A DNA stretch of 64,000 nucleotides. Origin: an uncultured Gammaproteobacteria bacterium (lineage in GTDB: Bacteria > Pseudomonadota > Gammaproteobacteria > Steroidobacterales > UBA11654). Below, in pieces: positions 5,381-7,865 of the stretch. Location: the NCBI GenBank assembly GCA_937801655.1, contig CALMWC010000009.1:1-64000 (forward strand), given 5' to 3'. Position numbers and translations under genes: made by a program. The notes below the pieces were generated by a model. The model saw only the letters and a program-made list of their open reading frames with translations, was not told the DNA's origin and searched no databases. The number at the start of each line of letters is the position of its first letter. The first letter of the stretch is position 1.

Positions 5381-5401
5381 TCAATATTCTTAAGGAGGAT
5401 G

Positions 5402-5632
5402 CAAAAAAAAACAGAGCTTAAAGCTCTGTTCTTAAGTCGAGTCCTTTAGGTGTCTGAAGTGAGATTTCTTCTCCAGCTCCTTGCCCGATTTCTCTTTTCG
5501 GTCTTGGTGGGTATCAGTTCTTTTTACTTGCTAGCTTATTTTCCCTGATTCGCTTTCACCTTTTAGGTCTCTTTCTCTTTTTAACTCTTTCGTCTGCGTC
5601 TTAAGTTACTTTCAAATCGGTCTTAAGAGATG
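5402..5632 (-). ncRNA. Candidate structured small RNA, about 230 nt
   Basis: A promoter-like sequence (5639-5666) and an intrinsic terminator (5403-5430), both on the minus strand, frame a roughly 230-nt stretch that is more GC-rich than its surroundings and has no convincing reading frame. The predicted RNA is purine-rich and can fold locally. A two-part stem pairs GGUG with CACC and AUCAG with CUGAU. Short hairpins CCGA/UCGG and ACCU/AGGU are present. The hexamer CUUAAG at the 5' end (5622-5627) can pair with a copy just before the terminator (5431-5436), and an inner copy (5600-5605) offers an alternative partner. It has no tmRNA, RNase P, SRP or obvious 6S hallmark. It could be a regulatory RNA of this lineage. 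Confidence 0.55.
5403..5430 (-). terminator. Intrinsic terminator of a minus-strand transcript
   Basis: Read on the minus strand, an 8-bp perfect stem (AACAGAGC/GCTCTGTT, loop TTTAA) is followed directly by 8-9 T residues. On the plus strand the hairpin is not followed by a T-run, so it terminates minus-strand transcription rather than the carrier gene that ends at 5380. No annotated minus-strand gene lies immediately upstream, which is the main reason to propose an RNA gene there. Confidence 0.8.
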
Positions 5633-5638
5633 TTTTAA

Positions 5639-5666
5639 ATAATACTTTTTGCCATATTTTTATCAA
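5639..5666 (-). promoter_or_regulatory. Candidate sigma-70 promoter for the small RNA
   Basis: On the minus strand TTGATA (5666-5661) and TATTAT (5644-5639) are separated by 16 nt; each matches the sigma-70 hexamers at 5 of 6 positions. The predicted start is near 5632, about 230 nt before the terminator. The region is AT-rich, so chance matches occur, but agreement with the isolated terminator raises confidence. Confidence 0.5.
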
Positions 5667-5908
5667 GCAATATTGGATAATAAAAATAAAATACATACAC
5701 TTTTATTTTTTATGTCCTATAAATAAAAAAAATCTAGATTAAGTAGATTCTATAACTTACTGAAAAATAATATTTTTAAAAAAAAATATCTAAAAAAATT
5801 GTCCTATTCTGATTTTATTTTATTTTTCTATTTCTTCCAATTGCAACCAGTGCTTTGCGCAATTAGTATTTTATTGTTTAAAAAAAAGGATGATTTCCAT
5901 TAATCATA
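5667..5908. other. AT-rich gene-free spacer
   Basis: Between the candidate small-RNA promoter and the tRNA promoter region there is a very AT-rich stretch with many A-runs and T-runs. I see no reading frame of note, no strong inverted repeat and no recognisable site in it. Confidence 0.6.
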
Positions 5909-5931
5909 TATAATCTCATCATTGTATAAAT

Positions 5932-6008
5932 GCGCCTGTAGCTCAGCTGGATAGAGTACCTGGCTTCGAACCAGGCGGTCGGGGGTTCGAATCCCTCCGG
6001 GCGCGCCA
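5932..6008 (+). tRNA. tRNA-Arg (anticodon TCG)
   Basis: A full cloverleaf can be drawn. The acceptor stem pairs GCGCCTG with CGGGCGC (one G-T wobble), the D-arm begins GCTCAGCTGG, and the anticodon stem CCTGG/CCAGG holds the loop CTTCGAA with anticodon TCG at positions 34-36. The T-arm contains GGTTCGAATCC, the discriminator is G, and CCA is encoded. The 5' half closely resembles proteobacterial tRNA-Arg. The anticodon reads CGA and, if U34 is modified, other CGN codons. A TATAAT at 5909-5914 is a likely -10 element; no good -35 was found. Confidence 0.96.
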
Positions 6009-6074
6009 TATGATTTTCCTCTTAGATAGCAGTTTTGTGAGTTTCTCGTATAATCCTTTTTTTTACTAATCGCT

Positions 6075-7865
6075 ATGAAAACAAGTCATTTAAGAAATAT
6101 TGCTATTATTGCCCATGTAGATCATGGCAAGACAACTTTGGTTGATAAGTTGTTGCAACAAACCAATACTTTGGATCGGAAGAGTCTTTCTGAGGAAAGA
6201 GTCATGGACTCCAATGACCAAGAGAAAGAAAGAGGAATCACCATACTCGCAAAAAATACCTCTATTGATTGGAATGACTATCGAATCAATATTGTTGATA
6301 CGCCTGGCCATGCAGATTTTGGTGGAGAAGTTGAGCGAGTATTGTCAATGGTGGACTCAGTCTTGTTACTTGTGGATGCTGTTGATGGACCGATGCCACA
6401 AACTCGCTTTGTAACGCAGAAGGCATTTGAGAAAGGTTTGAATCCAATTGTTGTTATTAATAAAATTGATCGTCCAGAAGCTAGACCTTTTTGGGTTTTG
6501 GACCAAGTATTTGATTTATTTGATCGACTAGATGCAACAGATGATCAGTTGGACTTCCCAGTAATTTATGCTTCTGCATTGCAAGGTATCTCTGGCCTAG
6601 ATCCAGAGAAATTGGGTGACAATATGGATTCTTTACTAGAGATTATTACCACTAAAGTAGAACCACCTGAAGTGGACAACAAAGGGGCACTACAAATGCA
6701 AATCAGTGCATTGGACAGTAATAGCTATGTTGGAGTGATTGGAATAGGGCGAATTACTCGTGGGTATTTAAAGCCCAATGCAAATGTTGTGGTTATTGAC
6801 CGTGAAGGCAATAAGAGAAAAGAAAGAGTTCTTCAAGTTATGAGTCATCAGGGGCTTGAAAGAGTCGATGTAGATTTAGCAGAGGCGGGAGACATTGTTT
6901 GTATAACAGGAATCAATAAATTAAACATATCAGATACCATTTGCGATCCAGAAACTATTGAAGCCCTTCCAGCATTGTCTGTTGATGAGCCAACTGTAAG
7001 CATGACATTTCTGGTTAATGATTCACCTTTTGCTGGATTGGAGGGAAAATTTATTACTTCAAGAAAAATCAAAGAGAGGTTGGATCAAGAATTATTGCAT
7101 AACGTCGCACTCAGGGTGGAAGATGGAAAATCTTCAGACAGGTTCATTGTTTCAGGACGAGGTGAATTGCACTTATCAGTTCTCATTGAAACCATGAGAA
7201 GGGAAGGTTTTGAATTGGGAGTTTCCAGACCTGAAGTGATAAAAAAAGAAGTAAATGGAGAGATTCACGAGCCTTTTGAGCAAATAGTGATTGATATTGA
7301 AAGTGAGCATCAAGGCTCAATCATGGAAGAAATGGGACCGAGAAAGGCTGATTTACAAAGCCTAGAACCCAATAGTAATGGAAGAGTAAAGCTCGAATTT
7401 ATTGCACCATCCAGAGGTATGATTGGATTTAGATCTCATTTTTTAACTATAACTAGCGGTACAGGGATTATGACCAGTATCTTTGATCACTATGGTCTAG
7501 TTAAGATGGGCGATCTGGCTAAACGTCAAAATGGAGTCATGGTGTCTATGGTTCCAGGTAAAACATTGGCTTACTCTTTGTTTAATTTGCAAAACAGAGG
7601 CAGTCTTTTTGTTGGGCATGGTTTAGATATTTATAAGGGGCAAATCATGGGACTTCACTCTCGGAATAATGATCTTGTGGTGAATCCAACAAAAGCAAAA
7701 CAACTTAATAATATCAGAGCTGCTGGTACCGATGAAAATCTTATTTTAGTTCCACACATAAAACATACACTGGAGCAAGCACTTGAGTTTATTGAAGAAG
7801 ATGAACTGGTTGAGGTTACTCCAAAGTCAATTCGTATCAGAAAGAAGACAGGTTGGACACTTTAA
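6075..7865 (+). CDS. typA: Ribosome-associated GTPase TypA/BipA
   Basis: Translational GTPase that binds the ribosome and supports 50S assembly and stress or low-temperature growth. The 596 residues equal the normal length. All G motifs are present: G1 [10 protein letters not shown]2 within RGITI, G3 [13 protein letters not shown]4 [10 protein letters not shown] and G5 near YASALQG. EF-G-like domains follow, then the BipA-specific C-terminal domain ([13 protein letters not shown]). A TATAAT at 6049-6054 upstream is a possible -10 element. It lies 66 nt after tRNA-Arg and ends 3 nt from the convergent SDR gene. Housekeeping gene, firmly identified. Confidence 0.97.

Follow-up and report, generated by a model that had tools for sequence, protein, structure and literature searches.

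What is encoded on the minus strand at positions 5402-5666 of the window, the 64,000-nucleotide stretch of gammaproteobacterial DNA analysed here, where a promoter and a terminator frame an interval with no evident protein? The first-pass annotation proposed a conserved structured small RNA that would be new. An Rfam covariance-model search upheld the conserved structured RNA and overturned its novelty, as the interval matches IMES-1 (RF02034).

An IMES-1 gene with its own promoter and terminator

The IMES-1 match covers positions 5427-5628 of the minus strand and the complete model (1-191), at 103 bits (E 6.4e-21) against a curated cut-off of 81 bits. It was the only above-cut-off Rfam match over the interval, the next falling below its own cut-off, in agreement with the earlier exclusion of tmRNA, RNase P RNA and 6S RNA. 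A relation to RNase P RNA was also rejected because a separate RNase P RNA gene was found in the window's genome and in nine of 10 other genomes searched. The conserved IMES-1 segments GGUGAAAGC, CCACCAAG, AAGGAGC and AUCUCAC are all present in the window RNA. With a full-length model match, a gene of its own, a marine gammaproteobacterial host and nothing that excludes membership, it is a full-length member of this already catalogued marine bacterial RNA family. As far as we know, no function has been assigned to IMES-1 since it was discovered in ocean metagenomes. The 2009 discovery papers reportedly described it as a high-abundance transcript. The RNA is probably abundant, and its strong promoter is conserved. 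The gene comprises the following elements.

5403-5632, minus strand: IMES-1 RNA gene, with a predicted transcript of about 230 nt that starts near 5632 and stops at the U-run near 5403, its ends placed from the promoter and terminator
5639-5666, minus strand: sigma-70-type promoter TTGATA-16-TATTAT, its 16-nt spacing common to nearly all related loci
5407-5433, minus strand: intrinsic terminator, an ACAGAGC/GCUCUGU stem with a U-run, the stem also being found in SAR86

Both signals had been noted in the first pass and are present (5666-5639 and 5433-5407). By consensus alone promoter-like sites were near chance (10 found against 8.9 expected), and the terminators (5 against 2.3 expected) were weak evidence taken alone. 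We regard both as real because almost every related copy keeps the promoter boxes, the 16-nt spacing and the terminator stem in register. Comparison of related loci showed that SAR86 copies carry TTGACA as the -35 box at the equal 16-nt spacing, and the terminator stem has a compensatory A-U to U-A change in one family (f46). IMES-1 is a free-standing gene with its own strong promoter and its own terminator. At most SAR86 loci, A and T tracts precede a near-consensus TTGACA-16-TAATAT promoter, an arrangement resembling promoters of the ribosomal-RNA type that carry an UP element.

The absence of a notable reading frame was likewise confirmed, with no ORF of at least 40 amino acids overlapping 5402-5666. 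A short ORF beginning GUG-AAA-GC(G/A) after GGG was read by eye and rejected as coding, since neither its length nor its stop is constant and it overlaps a hairpin. The interval is also richer in GC than its surroundings, as first described, with 39.5% in the RNA, 18.8% in the promoter-side spacer and 35% in the neighbouring gene. The single-sequence fold of the RNA was only mildly better than that of shuffled sequences (z -1.63).

Self-complementary loops

We compared about 100 IMES-1 copies and found two loops that vary in sequence yet are almost always able to pair with themselves. These loops, P3 and P1b, and the other stems considered below lie as follows.

5530-5535, minus strand: P3 loop palindrome GCUAGC, the main candidate for an intermolecular symmetric kissing loop
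5545-5549, minus strand: P3 stem 5' arm AUCAG, conserved
5513-5517, minus strand: P3 stem 3' arm CUGAU, conserved
5596-5609, minus strand: 5' hairpin loop P1b, GU-AA[CUUAAG]AC-GC, hexamer at 5605-5600, the second candidate intermolecular kissing loop
5485-5501, minus strand: P4 hairpin, GAGA loop at 5494-5491
5454-5476, minus strand: P5 hairpin, UCUC loop at 5464-5461, proposed partner of the P4 loop

In alignment A3 (MAFFT, 67 copies, including copies found with the covariance model), the P3 hexamer was self-complementary at the homologous position in 67 of 67 copies, G-U pairs being allowed. Nine hexamers occur (GCUAGC, GUUAAC, GGUACC, GCAUGC, GUCGAC, GUCGAU, GUCGGC, GUAUAC and GUGCAU) and all are self-complementary. 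When the hexamer halves were re-paired, a mean of 2.5 of nine were self-complementary and none of 20000 permutations reached nine, in a test that ignores kinship. Sliding the register by 1-5 positions left only 0-3 of 67 self-complementary; the 3-column shift in register between f188 and the other families was the analyst's choice, fixed per family. On a tree from which the hexamer columns had been left out, the hexamer changed at least 17 times. Pair counting gave 100% of cells paired (72.7% when shuffled) and a covariation of 0.886 (0.295 when shuffled). With loops defined by their stems and no register chosen, 6-nt Watson-Crick palindromes occurred in 40 of 47 distinct segments, against 7.4 after shuffling, in a set that includes some loosely bounded segments with extra sequence and leaves out the loops of the window's family. 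The P3 palindrome is not universal, as divergent copies in family f177 are without it.

The P1b hexamer, CU[GC/CG/UA]AG in the context AA[CUNNAG]A, was 99.5% paired, with covariation among its three central dinucleotides, and the pair closing the 10-nt loop also covaries. The case is weaker than for P3, as there are only three main states and 3 changes. One copy (L010) is an exception, having GUGCAG with the outer pair lost. The Rfam consensus structure shows both the P1b and the P3 loop as unpaired. We also considered whether the two hexamers might pair with one another inside a single molecule, and rejected this because, by eye, they are not complementary.

Adjacent nucleotides cannot pair within one chain, and covariation within a palindrome is for that reason a signature of pairing between molecules. 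We consider it quite probable, judging from this covariation, that the RNA of this free-standing gene self-pairs through P1b and P3 into a homodimer or larger assembly. Transcription would run from the gene's strong promoter to its terminator and yield an RNA about 230 nt long that is not translated. The P1b (CUNNAG) and P3 (GNNNNY) hexamers would each bind their own counterpart in another copy of IMES-1 by base pairing, and these loop-loop contacts would build a homodimer or a larger RNA assembly whilst the P4 and P5 loops would pair within each molecule. As a guess, the assembly may serve as a trans-acting scaffold or sponge that needs neither Hfq nor CsrA.

A monomeric trans-acting regulator, whose palindromic loops pair with another RNA or mark DNA sites for a dimeric protein, is an unlikely reading to which we give perhaps a minor share of our belief. 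Palindromes are also typical of the sites of dimeric DNA-binding proteins, and the dimer proposed here is itself deduced from sequence. A protein site would, however, keep one sequence. The nine P3 hexamers instead stay self-complementary and the single-step intermediates between them are G-U wobbles, so the palindrome changes reflect pairing behaviour.

Support for the remaining stems was uneven. The AUCAG/CUGAU stem (P3) put forward in the first pass is conserved and supported within the window's family, where two copies have a G-C to A-U change and some cells are unpaired. By contrast, the GGUG/CACC stem put forward with it can be drawn but showed no covariation; one pair is broken in 16 of 67 copies, and GGUG mutates to GGCG, GGAG, GAAG or GUAG while CACC stays fixed. 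Compensatory changes are present in the P4 and P5 hairpins. Their loops, GAGA in P4 and UCUC in P5, are complementary, with the variants GAAAU/AUUUC (L009) and, read by eye, GAAGA/UCUUC (L122) and a change from GGGU/GCCC to GGUU/GACC (L146-L148). Copies in f196 with ACUC have lost one P4-P5 pair. None of 5000 permutations paired the loops as well, in a test that ignores kinship, and a column test gave a modest result. The P4-P5 test drew on copies that the covariance model had detected, because the pattern-search alignment A2 had ATCTC and CCACCAAG fixed and was hence biased. Pairing between the P4 and P5 loops within the molecule is probable, a covariation-based reading with modest support.

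Distribution and the remaining alternatives

The window comes from a 1.4 Mb draft genome that is 82% complete. We found IMES-1 in 10 of 11 genomes of its marine gammaproteobacterial family and in 0 of 48 order mates sampled outside that family. In a sample of 369 genomes from the class, it occurred in two besides the window's genome; in the order of one of these, which holds SAR86, 128 of 203 genomes have IMES-1. When named genomes were scanned with a sequence pattern, 54 loci emerged, most of them in SAR86 and the window's own lineage. IMES-1 was not found in searches of viral and phage collections, and a viral or phage origin was rejected on this basis. IMES-1 is now placed in named lineages, namely SAR86 and one other marine gammaproteobacterial family. 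Three divergent IMES-1-like RNAs (L146-L148, family f177 in the SAR86 order; 31-34 bits) lie upstream of a trpS-like gene; they keep a CUCGAG loop, and their P3 is short and ends in a GAAA loop. At SAR86 loci L015, L042 and L059 and in genomes G517 and G518, IMES-1 is duplicated in tandem or nearby, each tandem gene having its own promoter and terminator.

A 6S-like RNA, CsrA sponge or Hfq-dependent sRNA would fit the length, the strong promoter and the GGA motifs in unpaired stretches. This reading is largely refuted and we hold it very improbable. 6S RNA (RF00013) resembles IMES-1 in length and in being a stand-alone gene, but a separate 6S gene is found in all 11 genomes of the family (in the window's genome at G000:C10:144265-144446), and the window RNA has no RF00013 match even at E 10. 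No CsrA was detected in 16 genomes, 15 of which carry IMES-1, and Hfq was not detected in any of the 15 IMES-1 genomes tested. Incompleteness of the drafts is unlikely to explain the absence of both proteins across 15 genomes by chance. In the window's family (f1), Hfq was found in 0 of 11 genomes, compared with 26 of 29 order mates, and a lineage-specific loss is possible.

Equally improbable is a cis-acting leader or riboswitch, with its terminator regulating the gene that follows. Many SAR86 copies are indeed followed closely by pyk, pheA or trpS in the same orientation. However, the next gene, MFS, is convergent to IMES-1 in all 9 window-family loci analysed, which refutes this reading for the window by orientation. 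In the SAR86 family f188 the next gene is on the opposite strand in 20 of 60 loci, and neighbours, which include pyk, pheA, trpS and others, differ. The place first described for the RNA, between typA/tRNA-Arg and the carrier gene, holds in close relatives and not beyond them. In many f188 copies, approximately 40-75 nt separate IMES-1 from a downstream pyruvate kinase-like gene. A relative differs from window positions 5381-6075 in its gene content, with 5-oxoprolinase-like ORFs (locus L070) in place of the bare spacer that precedes tRNA-Arg and typA in the window.

Least probable of all is the switch proposed in the first pass, in which a terminal CUUAAG pair competes with an inner copy: the window sequence does hold three CUUAAG copies, but several congeners have a disrupted terminal pair and the three-copy arrangement was not seen in the SAR86 copies among the 67 aligned. 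Conservation of the inner CUUAAG as the palindrome CU[GC/CG/UA]AG points to intermolecular pairing and away from a switch.

Comparison with known RNA assemblies

The RNA family itself is known; what appears to be new is the structural reading with two self-complementary loops. These loops and the proposed P4-P5 pairing are not part of the IMES-1 consensus structure in Rfam. A self-complementary hexamer flanked by unpaired purines (AA...A) is also found in the HIV-1 dimer initiation site loop. IMES-1 shares this layout but is a bacterial non-coding RNA with two such loops, and the analogy is one of architecture only.

The closer parallel is with large bacterial RNAs. For OLE and GOLLD, the cryo-EM paper on OLE, ROOL and GOLLD took loops that switch between palindromes as the signature of symmetric kissing loops between molecules (PMC12286853). 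In IMES-1, P3 shows the same covariation of adjacent nucleotides within one loop, its core switching between palindromes as in the RNAs where this was read as pairing of two copies. IMES-1 differs in being shorter (about 230 nt), in having no known relation to these RNAs and in that its oligomer is predicted. If correct, this would extend RNA-only oligomers beyond a handful of giant RNAs, and the prediction of a self-associating two-loop RNA is direct and cheap to test. With somewhat less confidence than for self-pairing as such, we lean towards IMES-1 being a natural RNA-only homo-oligomer, with two self-complementary loops per molecule joining copies as dimers or more extended assemblies. 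It would then parallel the OLE, ROOL and GOLLD complexes on a small scale, in streamlined bacteria where neither Hfq nor CsrA was detected.
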